A stretch of 64,000 bases of DNA from Muscardinus avellanarius. Its lineage: Eukaryota; Chordata; Mammalia; Rodentia; Gliridae. Positions 8,032 to 61,479 of the stretch are shown here, one piece after another. The translations under genes and the position numbers were made by a program. The stretch is from contig OY726559.1 in NCBI GenBank assembly GCA_963383645.1, positions 111,823,444 through 111,887,443 on the forward strand, written 5' to 3'. The first letter of the stretch is position 1. Every line of letters begins with the position of its first letter. The notes under the pieces were generated by a model. The model worked only from the letters and a program-made list of their open reading frames with translations. It was not told where the DNA came from and did no database searches.

Positions 8032-9178
8032 CATTTAACATTTTTTAACTTTTTTTTTCTTTCTTTTAACAATTTTTTATTGAACATAAATAGTATACAT
8101 TTAAACTATATTTGGTGCCCTCTCCCCCCTGCCCCCGTTTTCCCTTTCCCCCTCCCACCAATGGTTGTCCAGGTTAACCATGTCATATTCATAATTTTAC
8201 ACATGTTCAGATGTAGACCCTCATTAATCTAGATCAGCCTTCCTCCTCTCCTATCTTTCCATTCAAATTTGCTGATATTTCCCCTCCATTATCTGGAGTC
8301 CCACTGGTATCCTCCGTGTTTCCTAGTTTGGGCATATTAGAGGAAACATATGTACCTTCTCCTTCTGTGCTTGGCTGATCTCACTTAACATGATGCTCTC
8401 CAGGACTTTCCATCTTCTTGCAAATGATATAATTTTGTTCTTCTTTATGGCGGTATAGAATTCCATTGTGTGTATTTCCCACAGTTTTGCTCTCCATTCA
8501 TCTGTTGATGGTGGTCTGGGTTGGTTCCATATTTTGGCTATTACAAATTGTGCTGCTATGAACATAGGTGTGTATATGTTGCTGTATTTCTCTGAATTCA
8601 ACCCCTTTGGAAAGATACCCAGGAGTGGTATAGCTGGATCATATGGTGGATCTATTCCCAACTTTCTTAGAAATCTCCACACAGATCTCCATAGTGGCTG
8701 AACTAGTTTGCATTCCCACCAACAGTGTAAAAGAGTTCCTCTTTCCCCACATCCTCGCCAGTATTTGTTGTTGTTTGATTTCTTTATGCTTGCCACTCTG
8801 ACTGGGGTTAGATGGAATCTCAGTGTAGTTTTGATTTGCATCTCCCTGATGGCCAGTGATGAAGAACATCTTTTCATGTATCTATTGGCCCTTTGTATCT
8901 CTTCTTCTGTGAAGTGTCTATTTAGTTCATTTGCCCATTTCTTGATTGGGTTGTTTGTTTTGCTAGTGTAGAGTCATTTGAGCTCTTTGTATATTCTGGA
9001 TATTAGCCCCCTATCAGAATGGTGGCTGGTAAAAATCCTTTCCCATTCTGTAGGCTTCCTCTTTAGGTTATTGATAGTTTCCTTTGATGAGAAGAAACTT
9101 TTTAGTTTGATGCTATCCCACTTGTTTATTCTTGCTTTAATTTCCTGAGCTTTGGAGGTTTTCATTTAACAATTTTTT
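8032..9178 (-). mobile_element. 5'-truncated young L1 with target-site duplication
   Basis: The sense strand is minus. The right end (9165) starts inside ORF2, continues through the ORF2 C terminus to 8323, then a 3' UTR with a G-rich polypurine tract near 8125-8155 and the end 'TTCAATAAAAAATTGTT'. Flanks share about 15 bp: CATTTAACATTTTTT at 8032 and CATTTAACAATTTTTT at 9163. About ten differences over ~430 bases separate its 3' end from the copy at 20.75 kb, so this L1 lineage was active fairly recently. Confidence 0.9.
8323..9165 (-). pseudogene. L1 ORF2 C-terminal part with one premature stop
   Basis: An L1 ORF2 fragment, starting downstream of the reverse transcriptase catalytic domain and including the C-terminal Cys-rich segment. 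It stays in one frame from 9165 to the natural stop at 8323, interrupted only by a TGA at 8974-8976 just after 'RIYKELK'. The C-terminal Cys-rich/WRGCG region and the 'WNQPRPPS' block are clear by comparison with L1 proteins in general. It cannot make a functional retrotransposase because the endonuclease and RT domains are missing. Confidence 0.9.
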
Positions 9179-9795: not shown

Positions 9796-9999
9796 CAGCC
9801 ATGTGTGGGGGCACACGCTTGTAATCCCAGCATTTGGGAGACTGAGACACGAGGATTGTGCGGTTTGAGGACAGCCTCAGCTACTACTTAGCGAGGCCCT
9901 TTGCAACTCAGTGAGACCCTATTTCAAAATAAAGAATAAAAAATAGGGCTGGGGGTGTAGCTTGGAGGTAGAATGGCCCTGGCTTCCATCCCCAGTACA
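9796..9999 (+). mobile_element. Dimeric SINE just upstream of OR6P1
   Basis: Full-length type A copy ending 140 bases before the OR6P1 ATG. A non-ATG open frame runs from this SINE into the OR frame but is interrupted functionally by the splice acceptor at 10105. Confidence 0.85.
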
Positions 10000-10074
10000 A
10001 AAAAAAATTGTCAATCTACTCTCTCCCTGGATACTTCAGGGGTCCCAGGCGGTGAGGGCGGATAGGATTTTGTT

Positions 10075-10105
10075 CTCTCTTTCAACCTGGTTTATTTTCC
10101 TCCAG
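10075..10105 (+). promoter_or_regulatory. Likely splice acceptor of OR6P1 coding exon
   Basis: A pyrimidine-rich tract ends in 'TTTTCCTCCAG' at 10105, 33 bases before the ATG. OR genes usually have 5' non-coding exons spliced just upstream of a single coding exon, which this fits. Confidence 0.6.
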
Positions 10106-10138
10106 TTCCCTGCTCAGACAGTCCAGAGGCCCGAGGCC

Positions 10139-11092
10139 ATGGGAAACGTGAGCGGCGGGCGAGTGGAGGAGTTCGTGCTGCTGGGGTTCCCCACCTCCCC
10201 GCCCCTCCAGCTGCTCCTGTTTGCCTTCTTCTTCACTGTCTACCTGCTGACGCTGCTGGAAAACACGCTCATCATTTCCACAGTCTGGCTCTCTCCGAGC
10301 CTCCACCGGCCCATGTACTTCTTCCTGGGCCATCTCTCCTTCCTGGAGCTGTGGTACGTCAACGTCACCATCCCCCGGCTGCTGGGCGCCTTTGTGACCC
10401 AGGATGGCAGAGTCTCCTACGGAGGCTGCATGGCTCAGCTCTACTTCTTCATTGCTTTGGCCTGCACGGAATGCGTCCTGCTGGCCGTGATGGCCTACGA
10501 CCGCTACCTGGCCATCTGCGAGCCCCTCCGCTACCCCAGCCTCATGTCCCCCAGCCTGGCCACGCGCCTGGCCGCTGCTTCTTGGGGCAGCGGCTTCTTT
10601 AGCTCCATGATGAAGCTACTTTTCATTTCCCGGCTGTACTACTGTGGCCCCAACATCATCAACCACTTCTTCTGTGACATCTCCCCGCTGCTCAACCTCA
10701 CCTGCTCCGACAAGGAGCAGGCGGAGCTGGTGGACTTCCTCCTGGCACTGCTGATGATCCTACTCCCGCTGGTGGCTGTGGTCTCCTCCTATGCCGCCAT
10801 CATGGTGGCCGTCCTCAGGATCCCCACTGCCCAGGATCGGCACAAAGCCTTCTCCACCTGCACCTCCCACCTGGCCGTGGTCATCATCTATTACTCCTCC
10901 ACACTCTTTACCTACGCCCGGCCCCGAGCCATGTATGCCTTCGACTACAACAAAGTCATCTCTGTCCTCTACACGGTCATCGTCCCGTTCCTCAACCCAG
11001 CTATCTACTGCTTGAGAAATAAGGAGGTGAAGGACGCCTTCAAGAAGACAGTGCTGGGCAGACGTCACTATCCCAGGGATGCTCCTGACTGA
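10139..11092 (+). CDS. OR6P1: Olfactory receptor family 6 subfamily P member 1
   Basis: Odorant-binding seven-helix GPCR, expected in the cilia of olfactory sensory neurons and coupled to Golf/adenylyl cyclase. The 317-residue frame is intact. It shows an N-glycosylation site at N3, PMYFFL at the start of TM2 (58-63), extracellular-loop Cys97/169/179/189, the MAYDRYLAIC motif closing TM3 (D121-R122-Y123), KAFSTC before TM6 (236-241) and NPAIY in TM7 (286-290). The sequence matches what I know of human OR6P1 nearly end to end, including length and the C-terminal HYPRD motif. The ATG at 10139 is chosen over the upstream non-ATG extension because that lies in a SINE and a splice acceptor sits between. 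The neighbour OR6Y1, on the same strand, agrees with conserved cluster order. Confidence 0.95.
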   Translation: MGNVSGGRVEEFVLLGFPTSPPLQLLLFAFFFTVYLLTLLENTLIISTVWLSPSLHRPMYFFLGHLSFLELWYVNVTIPRLLGAFVTQDGRVSYGGCMAQLYFFIALACTECVLLAVMAYDRYLAICEPLRYPSLMSPSLATRLAAASWGSGFFSSMMKLLFISRLYYCGPNIINHFFCDISPLLNLTCSDKEQAELVDFLLALLMILLPLVAVVSSYAAIMVAVLRIPTAQDRHKAFSTCTSHLAVVIIYYSSTLFTYARPRAMYAFDYNKVISVLYTVIVPFLNPAIYCLRNKEVKDAFKKTVLGRRHYPRDAPD

Positions 11093-11582: not shown

Positions 11583-12262
11583 TCCACGCCTGCAAAGTGT
11601 GGGTGAGATCGGGAGTGACGCCTTTAGATGTGTGGACACAGTGTTGGTGTGATTGGGAGTGATGCCTTTAGCTGTGTGGACACGGTGTTGGTGTGAGTGA
11701 GATCAGGAGTGACACCTTTAGCTGTGTGGACACGGTGTTGGTGTGATCGGGAGTGACGCCTTTAGCTGTGTGGACACGGTGTTGGTGTGAGTGAGATCAG
11801 GAGTGACGCCTTTAGCTGTGTGGACATGGTGTTGGTGTGAGTGAGATCAGGAGTGACGCCTTTCGCTGTGCGGACACGGTGTTGGTGTGATCGGGAGTGA
11901 CGCCTTTAGCTGTGTGGACACGGTGTTGGTGTGAGTGAGATCAGGAGTGACGCCTTTAGCTGTGTGGACATGGTGTTGGTGTGAGTGAGATCAGGAGTGA
12001 CGCCTTTCGCTGTGCGGACACGGTGTTGGTGTGATCGGGAGTGACGCCTTTAGCTGTGTGGACACGGTGTTGGTGTGAGTGAGATCAGGAGTGACGCCTT
12101 TAGCTGTGTGGACATGGTGTTGGTGTGAGTGAGATCAGGAGTGACGCCTTTCGCTGTGCGGACACGGTGTTGGTGTGATCGGGAGTGACGCCTTTAGCTG
12201 TGTGGACACGGTGTTGGTGTGATCGGGAGTGACGCCTTTAGCTGTGTGGACACGGTGTTGTC
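11583..12262. repeat. Minisatellite with 144-bp higher-order unit
   Basis: About 14 units of a GT-rich repeat in two lengths: a 44-base form with 'GTGTGATCGGGAGTGACG' and a 50-base form with 'GTGTGAGTGAGATCAGGAG'. Two long units and one short unit make a 144-base higher-order repeat. The variant 'TTTCGCTGTGCGGAC' recurs at 11861, 12005 and 12149, exactly 144 apart. Copies are highly similar, implying recent amplification. Confidence 0.95.
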
Positions 12263-17757: not shown

Positions 17758-17890
17758 TTCTACGGCACTTTTATTGGTGCACTGTAATTATACAGCGTAA
17801 AGAGGTCCAGGGTCATGGGGACACACATGCACACACCCCTCTCGATCCCTCTAGAGCCCTCTAGATCCCTCTAGATCCCTCTAGATCCAG

Positions 17891-22757: not shown

Positions 22758-23032
22758 TCTGGATTTTCCATAGATGGTGGTGTCATGAGCCAGTCCAAAG
22801 TCACATAAACCATACCTACAGAGCGAGAGATTGGGGTGGGGCTCCTTCTTTCCACGGGCAGGAGCTGGGCGTGTTCTTCCTGTTGTGAAATCTTGGCAAA
22901 GCCCCCAAGTGAGCCTCGGGAGGTTCTAATTTCACTTCCCTTGTCAACTTCGCTGACAGACTTGCTGGAGGTGGGTTGCGGGCCAGTGCTGGGGCCCAGA
23001 GGAAACTGATTTTGTGTCCGTTACAGCCCGCC
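22758..23032 (+). promoter_or_regulatory. OR6Y1 upstream sequence and splice acceptor
   Basis: Unique sequence with a pyrimidine-rich end 'GATTTTGTGTCCGTTACAG' at 23026, followed by CCCGCC and the ATG. The AG at 23025-23026 is a good acceptor, and the ATG then sits in a strong initiation context. Confidence 0.6.
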
Positions 23033-24010
23033 ATGCTCCCTGAGGCTCTGGAAGCAGGCAACTGGACGGTGACCACGCACTTCATCCTCCTGGGATTCCC
23101 AACGCGCCCGGCCCTGCAGCTCCTCCTCTTCTCTGTCTTCCTGGTCGGCTACCTGCTGACCCTGCTGGAAAACCTCCTCATCATCCTGGCCATCCGCAGC
23201 GACGGGCGGCTGCACACGCCCATGTACTTCTTCCTGAGCCACCTCTCTTTCCTGGAGATGTGGTACGTCACCGTCATCAGCCCCAAGATGCTGGCCGACT
23301 TCCTCAGCCGGGACAAGAGCATCTCCTTCAACGGCTGCATGACCCAACTCTATTTCTTTGTGACCTTCGTCTGCACTGAGTACATCCTGCTCGCTGTCAT
23401 GGCCTTTGACCGCTACGTCGCCATCTGTAACCCGCTACGCTACCCGGTCATCATGACCAGCCGGCTCTGCGGCACCCTGGCCGGCGGGTGCTGGTCCTGC
23501 GGACTCCTGACCGCCATGATTAAGATGGTTTTCATAGCCCGGCTCCACTACTGCGGCACGCCTCACATCAACCACTACTTCTGCGACATCTCTCCTCTCC
23601 TCAACGTCTCCTGCGAGGACTCCTCCCAGGCCGAGCTGGTGGACTTCTTCTTGGCGCTGATGGTCATCGCCGTCCCCCTCTGTGTGGTGGTGACATCCTA
23701 CATCACCATCCTCACCACCATTCTTAAGATCCCTTCTGCCCAGGGCCGCCAGAAAGCCTTCTCCACCTGCGCCTCCCACCTGACCGTCGTAACCCTGTTC
23801 TATTCCACAACCCTCTTCACCTATGCCCGCCCCAAGCTCATGTACGCCTACAACTCCAACAAAGTGGTGTCTGTTCTTTATACTGTCATAGTCCCCCTCC
23901 TGAACCCCATCATTTACTGTCTGCGGAACCGAGACGTGAAGGCAGCCCTCAGAAAGACCGTGCTGTGCGGTACAGGTGGGCCCAGGGAGGACAGAGACTC
24001 CGGTAGCTAG
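23033..24010 (+). CDS. OR6Y1: Olfactory receptor family 6 subfamily Y member 1
   Basis: Intact 325-residue odorant GPCR, the same length as human OR6Y1 and matching it closely through the helices. Visible features: N-glycosylation site N10-W-T, PMYFFL (63-68), Cys102/174/184/194 in the extracellular loops, [10 protein letters not shown] at the end of TM3 (D126-R127-Y128), [13 protein letters not shown] in TM6 (241 onward) and NPIIYCLRN in TM7 (291-299). The ATG at 23033 lies seven bases after a splice acceptor, so the upstream non-ATG extension is excluded. It lies 12 kb from OR6P1 on the same strand, as in human in reverse. The C-terminal tail (from about 312) is the least conserved part. 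Confidence 0.95.
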
Positions 24011-28970: not shown

Positions 28971-29815
28971 GTGCATCTCTATGCCACCTTCTTTTCATAC
29001 ACTTGTCTTTTATCAGCGCTAAGAAACCAGGTGGGCAGACTAAAGGTCACAGGATAATTGGAGCCTTCCTAGGGCTATCAATGGTCAACGAGGCCTCGGG
29101 CCGAATAGATCTAATTTGATCTCAATTTGCCGTGTAAAATAACTCCACTGGGGGGGCTATTTCCTGTGCTCCCCGGCTGGCAGAATCCAGCGAAACCCAG
29201 CATCCTGCAGCCCTTTCTATTTTTCAAAGATTGCATTCTTTGACTCTTTTTTTTTTTTTAACCAGTGACATCACAGAGGCCCAAACTCTATTCCTATGGC
29301 CTCTGCGGAGAGTTCTGAAAATTATCCCCCAAAGCACCACTGTAGAACCTTTTCTTTTCTTCTGTCTCTTATTAGTCATGGCCTCCACACGCTGGCTGAT
29401 ATTTGTGGGTTTTTTTGTTCAAAACCCCAGGGAGTCATTATTGCCAAATTATTTTTGGAACACTTTTATATTTATCTCACTAAGCAAAGGGGATGCAGAA
29501 AACGCTACAGACCCAAAGCTCACAGGTCCAACCGGGTGGAAAAGAAACAGAGGGGGGAAGATTGGCATGGTCATTAGCTGGTTTTCTCTCTGGGGTTCCC
29601 TGCCAGCTCCTTAGAAGCTGAGAGCTGGGGAGCATCGAGGGGCATGAATATGGACAATCTGGATTTACAGGTTACATGGGGCTGTCTTTCTGAGTCTTTT
29701 TGTGTAGGGGAAGCTTTTTTCCTTCTTCTTCTTCTTCCTCAGACTTTACCAGGATGAATAAAGCCTCCCCCCTCCCTCTCTCTCTCCCTCGCTCCTTCCC
29801 TCCCTCTCCCTCTCT
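28971..29815. other. Unique stretch without recognised elements
   Basis: Nearly 850 bases free of SINE and L1 sequence, unusual for this window. No protein is recognisable in short frames at 29231-29614. A C/T-rich patch lies at 29770-29815. Confidence 0.4.
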
Positions 29816-30316: not shown

Positions 30317-30344
30317 ACAAATATTTTTGAAATATAAAACCTTA

Positions 30345-30690
30345 GGCGCGCGGCGCACACCAGCCGGGGCCCGGGTCGCGGGACCCTGGGCCACGGGCCG
30401 AATTGCATGTAGCACGCCAGACCCCTGGAGAAACCAGGCCCAGTAAGTGGCTGGGTTCTGGGCAGGGGTCGTGCTCGGGGCATGCCAGATGGGGCCCGGG
30501 TCGCGGGACTCTGGGCCCTGGGCCGAAATGTGCATAACACGCCAGACCCCTGGAGAAACCGGGTTTAGTACCCTGGGTTCCGGGCAGGGGTCACGAGGAG
30601 CACGCCAGCTGGGGCCCGGGTCGTGGGACCCTGGGCCCCAGGCGGAATAGGGCAGATCACTCTGGACCCATGGGGAAACCAATAGGGTTA
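30345..30690 (+). repeat. GC-rich 5' tandem monomers of the composite retroposon
   Basis: The motif GGGGCCCGGGTCG starts at 30366, 30491 and 30611, giving a monomer of 120-125 bases with about 2.8 copies. The outermost monomer is cut short at the 5' end. CpG-rich. The arrangement recalls the promoter monomers of mouse L1 5' UTRs; a promoter role here is inference. Confidence 0.85.
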
Positions 30691-31254
30691 CAGTGCTACT
30701 GAGTGCCTGATCCCATACCTCCTCAAACCACATATACTGTCTTCTCTTATTAAAAAAAAAAAAAAAGGAACAGAAAAAGAAAAAGAAAAATATCGGAGAG
30801 GAGGTAAGAAAGCCGTTATGGATGCCAGGACACTGGAGATGCAGATAAAACTTATCTAAATGCACTGGAACTTATGGAAAAATTCGCCGTGAAAGAGGAC
30901 TGCTATTTCTCTATATTGTTAAGAATCTCAGACATCACCTGTAAGGAGAGAGTTTACCGGAGACCAAGGAGAAATGCGATGTTGAAAGAGTTCTCCGCGA
31001 TGGTGGTGGAGACTTGTATTCAGGAGAAGCAGAAACCGGATCCTACCAACTTTATTTTTTTGGAGAAATTACACCAAATGTCGAATGCTACCATTACGCA
31101 TGCTTAGGAACACTGGACAACATTCAGAGTGGAAAAAGAGCCTGGGAAGGATTTGAAATGGTGGAGGCAGTGGCAGTGCCAGTGGCCAATACTCAGGGGA
31201 GGCAGAGATCTGATACATTACACCTGGAACCTTTGAAATAATAACCACAGAGAC
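30691..31254 (+). other. Non-repetitive module of the composite retroposon
   Basis: Starts with AT-richer sequence and an internal A15 run (30751-30766) followed by A/G-rich sequence. That looks like a fossil tail or a junction between two source pieces. A strong splice-donor match GAGGAG/GTAAGAA occurs at 30801-30810. A 77-codon frame follows. Confidence 0.6.
30874..31107 (+). CDS. 77-residue ORF inside the composite retroposon, function unknown
   Basis: ATG at 30874, stop at 31105-31107. Charged and Cys-containing with no domain I recognise. A second overlapping frame (about 31014-31241) is open just after it, so a single frameshift may have split a longer captured exon. Whether it is translated is unknown. 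The low confidence refers to its being a real gene. Confidence 0.2.
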   Translation: MEKFAVKEDCYFSILLRISDITCKERVYRRPRRNAMLKEFSAMVVETCIQEKQKPDPTNFIFLEKLHQMSNATITHA

Positions 31255-33515
31255 AGTGATCGGAACCTGCTGAGGGGTTAGGCGGGCGCTGGGACCAGTG
31301 GCCAACATCGGAGCTTGCTGTGAGGCAAGGCCACTACTGAGGCCTCCGTGGCCGGGATTGGAACCTGCCGAGGGGTTAGACCAATGCTGGGGCCAGCGAG
31401 GCGGGCATTGAAGCCTGCCATGAGGCAAGGCTTGTGCTGGGGCCTCACAGGTCGGGTCCGGAACCTGCTGAGGGGTTAGGCCGGTGCTGGGGCCAGTGAG
31501 GCCGGCATCGAAGCCTGCCATGAGGCAAGGCTGGTACTGGGGCCTCCGAGGCCAGGATAAGAGCCTGCCAAGGGGTTAGGCCAGTGCTGGGGTCAGCGAG
31601 GCCAGCATCGGAGCCTGCCGTGAGGCAAGGCCGGTGCTGGGGCCTCCGAGGACGGGACCGGAGCCTGCTGAGGGGTTAGGCCGGTGCTGGGGCCAGCGAG
31701 GCCGGCATCAGAGCCTGCCATGAGGCAAGGCAGGTACTGGGGCCTCCGAGGTCAGGATAAGAGCCTGCCGAGGGGTTAGGCCGGTGCTGGGGCCAGTGAG
31801 GCCGGCATCGGAGCCTGCCGTGAGGCAAGGCCAGTGCTGGGGCTTCCGAGGCCGGGATAAGAGCCTGCCGAGGGGTTAGGCCGGTGCTGGGGCCAGCGTG
31901 GCCGGCATCGGAGCCTGCCGTGAGGCAAGGCCGGTGCTGGGGCCTCCGAGGCCGGGATAAGAGCCTGCCGAGGGGTTAGGCCAGTGCTGGGGCCAGCGTG
32001 GCCGGCATCGGAGCCTGCCGTGAGGCAAGGCCAGTGCTGGGGCCTCCAAGGCCAGGATAAGAGCCTGCCGAGGGGTTAGGCCAGTGCTGGGGCCAGTGAG
32101 GCCGGCATTGCAGCCTGCCGTGAGGCATGGCTGGTGCTGGGGCCTCCAAGGCCAGGATAAGAGCCTGCCAAAGGGTTAGGCCGGTGCTGGGGCCAGCGAG
32201 GCCGGCATCGGAGCCTGCCGTGAGGCAAGGCCGGTGCTGGGGCCTCCAAGGCTGGGATCGAAGCCTGCCTTGAGGCAAGGCCGGTACTGGGGCATCTGAG
32301 GCTGGGATAAGAGCCTGCCGAGGGGTTAGGCCAGTGCTGGGGCCAGCGAGGCCGGCATTGGAGCCTGCCGTGAGGCATGGCCGGTGCTGGGGCCTCCGAG
32401 GCCAGGATAAGAGCCTGCCGAGGGGTTAGGCCAGTGCTGGGGCCAGCGAGGCCGGCATCGGAGCCAGCCGTGAGGCATGACCAGTGCTGGGGCCTCCAAG
32501 GCCGGGATCGGAGCCTGCCTTGAGGCACGGCCGGTACTGGGGCCTCCGAGGCCAGGATAAGAGCCTGCTGAGGGGTTAGGCCGGTGCTGGAGCCAGTGAG
32601 GCCGGCATCACAGCCTGCCGTGAGGCATGGCCGGTGCTGGGACCTCCGAGGCCAGTATTGGAGCCGGCCGAGGGGTTAGGCCAGTGCTGGGGCCAGCGAG
32701 GCTGGCATCGGAGCCTGCCGTAAGGCAAGACTGGTACTGGGGCCTCCGAGGCCAGGATAAGAGCCTGCCGAGGGGTTAGGCCGGTGCTGGGGCCAGCGAG
32801 GCCGGCATTGGAGCCTGCCGTGAGGCATGGCTGGTGCTGGGGCCTCCGAGGCCAAGATCGGAGCCTGCTGAGGGGTGAGGCCGTAGCTGGGGCCAGTGAG
32901 GCCGGCATCGGAGCCTGCCGTGAGGCAAGGCCAGTGCTGGGGCTTCCGAGGCCGGGATAAGAGCCTGCCGAGGGGTTAGGCCGGTGCTGGGGCCAGCGAG
33001 GCCGGCATCGGAGCCTGCCGTGAGGCAAGGCTGGTATTGGGACCTCCGAGGCCAGGATAAGAGCCTGCCGAGGAGTTAGGCCGATGCTGGGGCCAGCGAG
33101 GCCAGCATCAGAGCCTGCCGTGAGGCAAGGCCGGTACTGGGGCCTCCGAGGCCAGGATAACAACCTGCCGAAGGGTTAGACCAGTGCTGGGGCCAGCGAG
33201 GCCGGCATCGGAGCCTGCCGTGAGGCGAGGCCGGTGCTGGGGCCTCCGAGGCCGGGATTGGAATCCTGCCAAGGGGTTAGGCCGGTGCAGGGGCCAATGG
33301 CCAGCATCGGACTCTGGCATGAGGCAAGTTCACTCCTGCGGCCTCCAAGGCCGGGACCAAAGCCAGCTTAGGGGTTAGACCGGTGCAGGGGCCAGCGAGA
33401 CCAGAACTGGGGCCTCCCATGAGGCAAGACCGCTGCTTGAGCCAGCGAGGTCTTGATCAGTCCACTGAGTAGCCAGGCCACTACTGGGACCATCAAGAGT
33501 GGGATCGGTACTTGA
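31255..33515 (+). repeat. VNTR of 50-bp half-units in 100-bp dimers
   Basis: Half-unit a contains 'GGGGCCAGCGAGGCCGGCAT' and ends 'CCTGCCGTGAGGCAAG'. Half-unit b contains 'GGGGCCTCCGAGGCCGGGAT' and ends 'CCTGCCGAGGGGTTAG'. The AGGGGTTAGG marker recurs at 100-base steps (31471, 31571, 31671 and so on to 33171), about 21 times. Two steps are 150 bases (32171-32321 and 32421-32571) because of the same extra half-unit containing 'CCTGCCTTGAGGCA'. Edge units are the most diverged. Each unit has several CpGs. Confidence 0.95.
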
Positions 33516-33897
33516 AACGCAGCATGCACAGAGAAATATCGCAGGAAATATAAATCAGACGCTTCTCTTAATCAGCAATAACTAGGAGGAAAAGGGCAAC
33601 AGGAAGAAGTTGAGCTATAGAAAGGGCCCTATAGTGAAGTAACTAATGTGACCAATCAGAGGGTATGTAATACTGGAGGACAGAGCCTCTTTAAAACGCA
33701 GGAGGTACATAAACAAATGTATCAAAGTAAATCACCAAAGAAGCGTGGGATGGAGGGAGGGGGAGGGGATGGGATGGGGGCTGGAGGAGGGCTAATTGTA
33801 TGATGTGTGCTTGTATATCCTCTCAAGTCTTGTACTCCAATGTGATTGATATATGACTACAATGCACCAATTTAAATAATAAATTAATTTAAAAAAA
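33516..33897 (+). mobile_element. L1-type 3' UTR end of the composite retroposon
   Basis: Contains a G-rich polypurine tract (33749-33790) followed by 'AGGGCTAATTGTATGATGTG', 'CTTGTACTCCAATGTGATTG' and 'GACTACAATGCACCAAT', then the A-rich tail. The same blocks in the same order close the L1 fragments at 46.26-46.56 kb and 53.2 kb. This is the part that could recruit L1 machinery. Confidence 0.75.
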
Positions 33898-33964
33898 GAA
33901 ATATAAAACCTTAAAGAATAAAATGAAAACAAAATTGTGTGTATCTAATGTTGGAAGACTTTTT

Positions 33965-46259: not shown

Positions 46260-46560
46260 GAAGAAAAAGGGTCATAAAAGGAACTCTAGGTAAAAAAGGA
46301 GAAACCATAGATGAGCAAATAAGGCGCCCTAACTGGGGGTGATGGGAGGGGAGAAAAGAGAAATTCCCTAATGTGCATGAAGTCCATTCACAAACACATC
46401 AAGTCAATCACTAAGCCAACATGAGAAGGAGGGAGAAGGAATGGAATAGGGCGGGAACTGGGGAAGGGCTAAATGAGCGATATGTGCATGGATGTCTCTA
46501 CATCCTGTACCCCATTAAGATGTACAGCTACAATGCGCCAATAAAAATTTTAAAAAGAGC
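46260..46560 (+). mobile_element. L1 3' UTR fragment, sense
   Basis: 'GAAGGAGGGAGAAGGAATGG' purine tract, then 'GAAGGGCTAAATGAGCGATA', 'CATCCTGTACCCCATTAAGA' and 'CAGCTACAATGCGCCAATAA'. It shares these blocks with the 3' end of the composite VNTR retroposon. Confidence 0.65.
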
Positions 46561-47248: not shown

Positions 47249-48196
47249 TTATTGGTACTGTTTTAGAGATCCTTTCTTGCCCAACACTTTTCTGATAGCA
47301 AACTGGACCTCCTTGTTTCTGAGGCTGTACACCATGGGGTTTAGCAAAGGAGTGAAAATGGTGTACGTCACCGTCACCAGCCTGTCCTTGCTGGACACGT
47401 AGCTGGTGGACGGTCTCAGGTAGATGAAGGAGGCGCAGCCATAGTGTATGACCACGACGGTCAGGTGGGAGGCGCAGGTGGAGAAGGCCTTCCGCTTGCC
47501 CTCGGCCGAGGGGATCTTCAGGATGGTCCTCAGGATGCAGAGGTAAGAGATGCAGATGAAGAAGAAGGGAAGGACAAGAACGAGGACCCCGCAGATGAAG
47601 ATCACAAACTCGTGGACGTCTGTGTCGGCACAAGCCAGACGGAGGACCGGAGAGATGTCGCAGAAGTAATGGTTGACCCGGTTGGCGCTGCAGAAAGGGA
47701 GGCTGAAAACTAAATTCACCACTGTGAGCGAGGCCAGGAAGCCTCCAGCCCCGCAGCCAGCTGCCAGACTCGCACACACCTGTCGGCTCATAAGGACGGG
47801 GTAGCGCAGAGGGTGACAGATGGCCGCGTAGCGATCGTAACCCATCACCCCCAAGAGCAGGCAGTTGGTGATGGCAAAGCCCAGGAAGAAGAACATCTGC
47901 AGGGCACAGCACGAGAAGGAGATGGTTCTGCCCACAGACAGGAGGTTGAGGAGCATCTTGGGCAGAATGACGAAGGTGTAGAAGGTCTCAGACGTGGAGA
48001 GAACCCCCAGGAAGAAGTACATGGGCGTGTGCAGGCTTCGCTCCAGGCGGATGACGCTGACGATTGTGGCATTGCCGCCGAGAATCACCAGGTACAAAAG
48101 GAAGAAGACCGCAAAGAGAGCCAGCTGGGTTCCACCGAGGCTCGAAAATCCCAGCAGCAAGAACTCAGTGATGCTGGTGAGGTTTTCTGTGAGCAT
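47249..48196 (-). CDS. OR10R2: Olfactory receptor family 10 subfamily R member 2
   Basis: Intact 315-residue odorant GPCR. N5-L-T glycosylation site, PMYFFL (58-63), Cys97/169/179/189, MGYDRYAAIC (D121-R122-Y123; Ala124 where most ORs have Val), [13 protein letters not shown] (236 onward) and NPMVYSLRN (286-294). The C terminus 'RKVLGKKGSLK' fits OR10R2. The upstream in-frame ATG at 48295 would add 33 residues, but a splice acceptor (pyrimidine tract and CAG) abuts the ATG at 48196, so I start there. Its nearest relative is the OR10R paralogue 8 kb downstream on the same strand. Position next to OR6Y1, in opposite orientation, matches the human order. Confidence 0.93.
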   Translation of the reverse strand: MLTENLTSITEFLLLGFSSLGGTQLALFAVFFLLYLVILGGNATIVSVIRLERSLHTPMYFFLGVLSTSETFYTFVILPKMLLNLLSVGRTISFSCCALQMFFFLGFAITNCLLLGVMGYDRYAAICHPLRYPVLMSRQVCASLAAGCGAGGFLASLTVVNLVFSLPFCSANRVNHYFCDISPVLRLACADTDVHEFVIFICGVLVLVLPFFFICISYLCILRTILKIPSAEGKRKAFSTCASHLTVVVIHYGCASFIYLRPSTSYVSSKDRLVTVTYTIFTPLLNPMVYSLRNKEVQFAIRKVLGKKGSLKQYQ

Positions 48197-48222
48197 CTGG
48201 AGAGGAGAGGCAAAATCATTAA
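48197..48222 (-). promoter_or_regulatory. Splice acceptor abutting the OR10R2 ATG
   Basis: On the minus strand 'TTTTGCCTCTCCTCTCCAG' is followed immediately by the ATG. A long pyrimidine tract with CAG is a strong acceptor, implying a 5' non-coding exon further upstream. Confidence 0.65.
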
Positions 48223-48547
48223 AGACATTCGGGTAGCCAAGAGAAGAAGCAGGGGCCTGTGTTCCTTTCTGGAAGGGCTGGGGAGGAGGAAACATGCCTT
48301 TTGTTTATCTTGACCAGTTTTTAGAACACCATCACACCCATTGGTTCCTGGTGCCTTCCTTCCAGCTTCAATGAACAAAGCCACATCTCTTATGCTAATT
48401 CCTTCCCTCTTAAGCTCCCTTTGATTACTTTGGGCCCACCGGAATAATGCAGGACAGCCTCTCTATTTGAAGGTTAGTTTATTTCATCTGAAAACTGAAT
48501 CCTCCCTCCCCCGCCGCAGCCATTTTTATTTTTTTAATTACTTTAAT
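48223..48547. other. OR10R2 upstream unique sequence
   Basis: Probable intron/promoter-side sequence; no motif called. Confidence 0.35.
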
Positions 48548-60058: not shown

Positions 60059-61018
60059 CTAGTTGAAGTTTGTTTTCCATTTCACAGGACACCGAGTCTG
60101 GCCCATTGTTCTTCGAAAGGCGGATTTGAACTCCTTGTTCCTCAGGCTGTAGATCATGGGGTTGAACAGCGGGGTGAGGATGGTATAGGAGACAGATATG
60201 AGGGTGTCTTGGCTGGAGGAGTAGTTGGACTTGGGTCGCAGGTAGATGAAGGAGGCGCAGCCGTAGTGCACCGTCACCACGATGAGATGGGAGGCGCAGG
60301 TGGAGAAAGCCTTGTATCTTCCAACGGAGGAAGAGATCTTCAGGATGGCGGAGATGATGCGGACGTAGGAGACCAGGATAAGGAGCAACGGGATGACCAG
60401 GACGAACACTCCCAGCATGAAGATGACCAGCTGGCTCAGGCGCGAGTGCTGGGAGGCCAGCTTGAGGACAGGGGAGATGTCGCAGAAGAAGTGGTGCAGT
60501 TGATTGGAAGAGCGGAAGGGCAGCTGGAAGACCAGAGAGGTGGTAACCACGGAAACAGTCAAGCCACAGACGCAGGCAGCGGCCACCAGCCCTGCGCACG
60601 CCCCGGGGCCCATGAGCACCGTGTAGCGCAGCGGGTCGCAGATGGCCACGTAGCGGTCATAGCCCATGGCGGCCAGCAGGAAGGAGTGAGAGCAGCCCAG
60701 GAAGAGGAAGGTGAACATCTGGATGGCGCAGCCCAGGAAGGAGATGGTCTTCCTCTGGGCCAGCAGGTCCACCAGCATCTTGGGCACGATGACGAAGGTG
60801 TAGCAGGTCTCGGAGCAGGACAGCACAGACAGGAAGAAGTACATGGGCGTGTGCAGGGCTCTGTCCAGCGCGATGGTGGACAGGATGATGGCGTTGGTGA
60901 ACAGCGTGAACAGGTAGAGGAGCAGGAAGACGAGGAAGAGCAGGTGCTGCAGCCCGGCCAGAGAGGAGAAGCCCAGGAGGATGAACTCCCTCACCACGGT
61001 CTCATTGGCCCACGCCAT
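60059..61018 (-). CDS. OR10K1: Olfactory receptor family 10 subfamily K member 1 (OR10K1-like)
   Basis: Intact 319-residue odorant GPCR. N5-E-T glycosylation site, PMYFFL (58-63), Cys97 and Cys179, MGYDRYVAIC (D121-R122-Y123), [13 protein letters not shown] (236 onward) and NPMIYSLRN (286-294). 'LFNPMIYSLRNKEFKSA' and 'SNQLHHFFCDISPVLKLASQHS' point to OR10K, nearer K1 than K2. The extracellular loop 2 cysteines at 169 and 189, found in the other four genes, are both absent (Arg169, Ser189). The tail is about six residues longer than human OR10K1. ATG at 61018 chosen; the longer open frame upstream starts with a non-ATG codon. Placement beside OR10R2 matches human OR10K1. Confidence 0.92.
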   Translation of the reverse strand: MAWANETVVREFILLGFSSLAGLQHLLFLVFLLLYLFTLFTNAIILSTIALDRALHTPMYFFLSVLSCSETCYTFVIVPKMLVDLLAQRKTISFLGCAIQMFTFLFLGCSHSFLLAAMGYDRYVAICDPLRYTVLMGPGACAGLVAAACVCGLTVSVVTTSLVFQLPFRSSNQLHHFFCDISPVLKLASQHSRLSQLVIFMLGVFVLVIPLLLILVSYVRIISAILKISSSVGRYKAFSTCASHLIVVTVHYGCASFIYLRPKSNYSSSQDTLISVSYTILTPLFNPMIYSLRNKEFKSAFRRTMGQTRCPVKWKTNFN

Positions 61019-61479
61019 GGGGCGGGGAGAGAGGTGGAGGCCAGGACCCAGGGTAGAAAGCAGAAACGGACAAAGACCACAGCACAATCTGCAGGCGGCA
61101 GGCGCTTCCAGATGTTTGGCAGAGTTCCTTCATTCCCCAAAGCATCTGCTAAAAGAAGAACTGGTGCTAAGCATGAGCGAGAACAACTGGGTCCAGTTGG
61201 GAGGCCGTCTCTAAAGTGAAAAGGACAGGCTGTCTCCAGCCAAGGGTGAGGATGCTCTGATAAAAATGTCCTCTTTCTCCTCCATTGGGTTTTCCTGCTC
61301 AACAATAAGCCCCAGCAAGTGAGCTCTTCCCAAAGGAAGCATGCTGTTAACTCAGCTACAGATACTATTCAGACACAAGCCTCAGGTTAACCAACCACAG
61401 AATCAGACAGGAGAGGAAGAATCCCACGATATCTTAATACAAGCACCAAGGGCTTTGTGCTTATGGTATTTACAATGCA
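61019..61479. other. OR10K1 upstream sequence
   Basis: A pyrimidine-rich minus-strand tract (about 61019-61075) precedes the ATG but has no AG close by, so I call no acceptor. No SINE within 460 bases. Confidence 0.4.

Follow-up and report, generated by a model that had tools for sequence, protein, structure and literature searches.

The window analysed here (the whole stretch of 64,000 nucleotides of rodent DNA) was found to contain an insertion of 3,553 bp which is a real composite retroposon insertion, having an SVA-like plan made from other parts. Its modules, all read on the plus strand, follow one another in the order of ~125-bp monomers, an A-rich linker with a unique stretch, a VNTR, a 3' module and an A7 tail. 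We give a probability of about 0.7 to the reading that a non-autonomous composite retroposon, lacking recognised coding domains, was inserted here at full or nearly full length. Its description as a composite retroposon inserted by the L1 machinery is well supported, and its description as a new SVA-like family, which rests on one copy, is plausible.

The insert is bounded by a perfect 16-bp direct repeat, GAAATATAAAACCTTA, with its left copy at 30329-30344 and an exactly matching right copy at 33898-33913, and with no other plus-strand occurrence in the 64 kb. The left copy adjoins the first monomer and the right copy adjoins the A7 tail, because of which coincidence is a very unlikely origin for the repeat. 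The control consisted of 3,000 position pairs drawn at random from the window and scanned with a slack of ±10 bases; matches of at least 10 bases were returned by six of the pairs, the longest being 30 bases (the upper limit of the scan), and these six were counted whatever their nature. The nick inferred from the left copy falls between 30328 and 30329, where the top strand reads TTTTT/GAAA, one mismatch from the L1 endonuclease motif TT/AAAA (given in a passage of PMC13174262). The length of the duplication, the A tail, which is short, and the nick site all match target-primed reverse transcription by LINE-1. A simple model that requires all 32 duplication bases to have stayed unmutated puts the probability of a divergence since insertion of more than about 9% below 5%, to be taken as a rough bound. 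This confirms what had been proposed in a sequence-only reading of this DNA, an insertion of 3.55 kb with an A-rich tail, flanked by a perfect duplication of 16 bp; both copies of the duplication are identical and the tail stands directly before the right one. The GC-rich tandem monomers, unique module and 2.2 kb VNTR which that reading had placed inside the insertion are likewise present, as described below.

The insert begins with a GC-rich 5' module at 30345-30689, consisting of a monomer of about 125 bp in 2.7 tandem copies (30355-30681 in the TRF output) with a G+C content of 69% and pairwise identities of 0.72-0.81. The observed/expected CpG ratio is 0.62 in the monomers compared with 0.56 in the right flank, 0.32 in the left flank and 0.40 in the window. 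The CpG content is no proof of a promoter role for the monomers, since the value of the right flank nearly equals their own. Two Rfam matches were obtained when small RNA heads were considered, both far under their gathering scores, and this candidate was rejected.

The monomers are followed at 30690-31244 by an A-rich linker (about 30750-30800) and the unique module. An open stretch of 99 codons in it (30808-31104) appeared protein-like by eye and was considered as a captured host exon. The candidate was rejected, as the 99-aa translation had no match in Pfam, PDB or the protein database and its length was at chance level, 1155 of 2000 second-order shuffles having a stretch at least as long.

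The largest module is the VNTR, detected by the tandem repeat scan with a period of 100 and 21.8 copies at 31266-33437, and by similarity from about 31245 to about 33510 (~2.2 kb). Unit classification resolved the 100-bp dimer into 50-bp half units, A and B, of which 37 stand in exact 50-bp register at 31383-33232 (18 of type A and 19 of type B). These alternate with two exceptions, in each of which one B unit succeeds another; the extra units there (32233-32282 and 32483-32532), which lie 250 bp apart, read as B/A hybrids with a B-type left and an A-type right part, and resemble each other. It is possible that they trace the duplication of a 250-bp block within the array. Two further units, at 32683 and 32833, received mixed labels from the classifier, which is crude, and are by eye A and B units with substitutions. 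A units share a mean identity of 0.90 with one another and B units one of 0.855, the mean between the two types being 0.73, and the array as a whole has a G+C content of 69%. Both edges are more diverged than the interior, which would fit arrays with internal turnover. A short unique stretch (33511-33586), having no VNTR similarity and lying outside the match at 46 kb described below, separates the array from the 3' module.

Elsewhere in the window, neither the monomers nor the VNTR found a match, and the unique module did so only through its A-rich tract. A single origin of monomers and VNTR from one repeat was considered and rejected, the two showing no similarity (score of 10 compared with a shuffle mean of 11.7 and maximum of 18). 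The window also contains a second minisatellite at 11597-12260, with 50-bp and 144-bp periods and 14 copies of the 50-bp unit, which lies downstream of an olfactory receptor gene at a distance of about 500 bp; the lack of a match between the VNTR of the element and the rest of the window is the result of the window-wide search, as distinct from a pairwise alignment of the two arrays. Beyond the window, plasmid and phage collections gave no match and a search of viral contigs for one VNTR pattern was negative, which says little as rodent DNA is unexpected there.

The 3' module (33587-33897, ~310 bp) carries a purine-rich G tract, an AATAAA signal and the A7 tail. It was found to share 64% identity over 302 columns with 46262-46554 on the plus strand (score of 66; the best of 60 shuffles reached 15), where a separate diverged copy of the 3' end of the element occurs without the other modules. 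A possible third relative of 73 bases at 17769-17841 on the minus strand is weak, scoring 31 against the 46 kb copy (the best of 20 whole-window shuffles reached 25) and only 14 against the element's own tail. In contrast, the 3' module resembles none of the three L1 or putative L1 3' regions compared within the window, and its identity as a local L1 3' UTR was not supported. Against the two L1 3' UTR copies it scored 14 and 12, with shuffle maxima of 18 and 16, whereas these two copies score 320 against each other; for a putative L1 remnant at 54.1 kb, the comparison with its 3' region gave 14, with a shuffle mean of 11.2 and a maximum of 15. On the basis of the match to 46262-46554, the 3' module is the 3' end of an older lineage of dispersed repeats. 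This lineage is probably LINE-type, judging by its form (a G-rich tract, AATAAA and apparently 5'-truncated fragments). The L1-type 3' UTR of the sequence-only reading was consequently not supported.

The coding content of the insert was scanned in 12 translations, namely those of 11 among the 50 open stretches that overlap the insert and have at least 50 codons, and that of one stretch of 42 codons. No significant Pfam match and no L1 domain were detected among them, the sole match being a non-significant one to fn3_4 (E 0.24). Nor was L1 ORF2 or reverse transcriptase found by Pfam in the 12, and the one translation compared with PDB had no match. The absence of L1 ORFs, which had been claimed before, therefore holds among the translations scanned by Pfam, which is a weak test for L1 here because the same library also missed a true L1 ORF2 fragment elsewhere in the window. 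This fragment, an ORF2 C-terminus at 8329-8973 on the minus strand, had its best match in PDB to LINE-1 ORF2 protein (E 1.4e-91); the same query also matches a chain of the cilia protein CFAP61 in PDB (E 3.5e-11). As the C-terminus is open over 215 codons, it suggests fairly recent L1 activity in this genome and a comparatively young age for this copy. The 3' UTR of the same L1 recurs at 20.7-21.1 kb, the pair being the two local copies compared above. The remnant at 54.1 kb is L1 by the look of its translation only and had no PDB match. Four long open stretches match the olfactory receptor family (Pfam 7tm_4), at 9947-11086 and 22913-24004 on the plus strand and at 47255-48304 and 60065-61129 on the minus strand, and the window sits in an olfactory receptor cluster. 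With these genes and the L1, the window has a mammal-like content.

The insertion probably arose from an RNA that started in the GC-rich monomers, which may have served as promoter, crossed the VNTR and ended at the A tail. This RNA would have been reverse transcribed at the nicked A/T-rich site with proteins supplied by LINE-1, and target-primed reverse transcription of the LINE-1 type would leave the 16-bp duplication. Supply of the proteins in trans is most likely, because the 12 translations showed no coding domain at a significant level. The element may be one of a family and the composite may have been built from an older LINE-type 3' end, comparable to gibbon LAVA with its old L1ME fragment. 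It had been proposed earlier that the element was moved by L1 through an L1-derived 3' end. The first part of this proposal is well supported, as the duplication, the near-consensus nick site and the A tail point to L1-type retroposition, and the second part is not supported, the 3' end being unlike that of the local L1s; recognition in cis by that L1 is therefore not indicated.

Other origins of the segment have been weighed against this one. It is scarcely credible that it is an LTR element, or that a minisatellite simply expanded on the spot, with the 16-bp repeat as a coincidence. The bulk of the segment is indeed a tandem array, which is able to grow in place, and the minisatellite at 11597-12260 is another such array in the same window. 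However, the perfect duplication lies exactly against the A tail on one side and the 5' monomers on the other, and local expansion would not supply a 3' end with AATAAA followed by an A tail. Terminal repeats are also lacking, the longest exact match between the first and the last 400 bp of the insert being 7 bases, and an LTR element was further rejected on the length of the duplication, which is 16 bp and not 4-6 bp and so exceeds what the integrase of such an element leaves. A LINE-1 lineage changed by internal deletion or rearrangement, in which monomers, unique module and VNTR together would make up an L1 5' UTR of this genome and ORF1 and ORF2 have been lost, is improbable to a lesser degree. 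Mouse L1 promoters are likewise arrays of monomers, in keeping with this origin. Replacement of L1 5' and 3' UTRs by unrelated sequences has occurred in the past (as described in part of PMC5753468), for which reason a mismatch to the local L1 3' UTRs (scores of 14, 12 and 14 against the three L1 or putative L1 3' regions, with shuffle maxima of 18, 16 and 15) counts against this origin without being fatal to it. The failure of Pfam to recognise any ORF1 or ORF2 remnant also speaks against it, with the weakness of that test for L1 noted above.

That a non-coding transcript of the host, by chance containing a minisatellite and ending in an old repeat, was retrocopied just once is unlikely, though this origin deserves rather more weight; its odds overlap with those of the preferred reading, which also covers a single L1-driven insertion. 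Such an event would not involve a transposon family, and it agrees with the finding of a single occurrence in the window for the modules besides the 3' end. A 5' start made of GC-rich tandem monomers is a layout familiar from L1 internal promoters. The insert begins directly with such monomers and its last ~310 bp are the 3' end of a dispersed repeat, whereas a random transcript need not have both; on the other side, L1 is known to insert cellular RNAs in trans too (stated in a passage of PMC13174262). The preferred reading thus remains that of a full-length or near full-length composite retroposon.

A further step is to regard this retroposon as one of an independent, non-primate family of VNTR composites in this rodent, with its own version of the SVA plan (GC-rich promoter monomers, a VNTR in 50-bp register and an old LINE-type 3' end) and carried by LINE-1 despite a 3' end unrelated to that of the local LINE-1. 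The chances for and against this are evenly poised. VNTR composites have been termed specific to hominoid primates in a section of a paper which itself analyses SVA2 of a macaque (PMC4432496). No description of a VNTR composite in rodents, including sciurids, was found in the literature by titles and the starts of abstracts, mostly open-access, which is weak evidence of novelty. If such a family exists, it would be a second, unrelated origin and would make GC-rich 5' repeats joined to a VNTR and a borrowed 3' end a recurrent way of riding LINE-1. It would also offer a natural comparison for the role of the VNTR in mobilisation. Should the insertion turn out to be a lone retrocopy, its general interest would be small.

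Among known systems, the element shares GC-rich tandem 5' monomers with LINE-1 elements that have a monomeric 5' UTR (mouse Tf type). It differs from these in its long VNTR, in having no ORF domains found and in a 3' module unlike the local L1 3' UTR, where the comparison covers the L1s of the window. The HAL1 (half-L1) elements, non-autonomous L1 derivatives which arose several times in mammals (according to a passage of PMC5753468), resemble it in being non-autonomous. HAL1, however, encodes ORF1p, and as no ORF1 domain was detected in the 12 translations the element is not HAL1 by this criterion.

SVA elements carry an A tail and a target-site duplication. The element has both, the A tail being short and the target L1 endonuclease-like, as is expected of L1-mobilised retroposons. 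It also shares the overall plan of the hominoid SVA (SINE-R-VNTR-Alu), in which a 5' repeat module is followed by a VNTR with units of 35-50 bp and a distinct 3' module (as outlined in part of PMC5753468). Its 50-bp units fall within that range, and differ in being paired as an A/B dimer and kept in exact 50-bp register. Its array of 37 units at 69% GC also corresponds to the VNTR of SVA and LAVA taken together, which is central, GC-rich and built of units of about 30-50 bp. Nevertheless, the element is not a member of SVA or LAVA, because both the CT-hexamer of their 5' end and a 7SL-type match are absent; this assignment is judged by these two features, a further hallmark of the group being its 3' domain, SINE-R (HERV-K) or U1-AluSz-U2-L1ME. 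No tandem CCCTCT occurs in 30329-30700, CT-rich stretches at 29772-29811 lying outside the duplication, and Rfam gave no SRP/7SL match at the gathering score or at E up to 1, a search that a very short or diverged Alu piece could have escaped. In gibbons, LAVA (L1-Alu-VNTR-Alu) is a non-autonomous element with a central GC-rich VNTR and an old L1 (L1ME) fragment in its 3' part, and is mobilised by L1 in trans (as reported in a section of PMC4432496). The element described here is likewise non-autonomous, with a central GC-rich VNTR and a 3' part from an old repeat, and is different in having a set of 125-bp monomers as its 5' end. LAVA is therefore a closer analogue than SVA, since its 3' part too contains a fragment of an old element.
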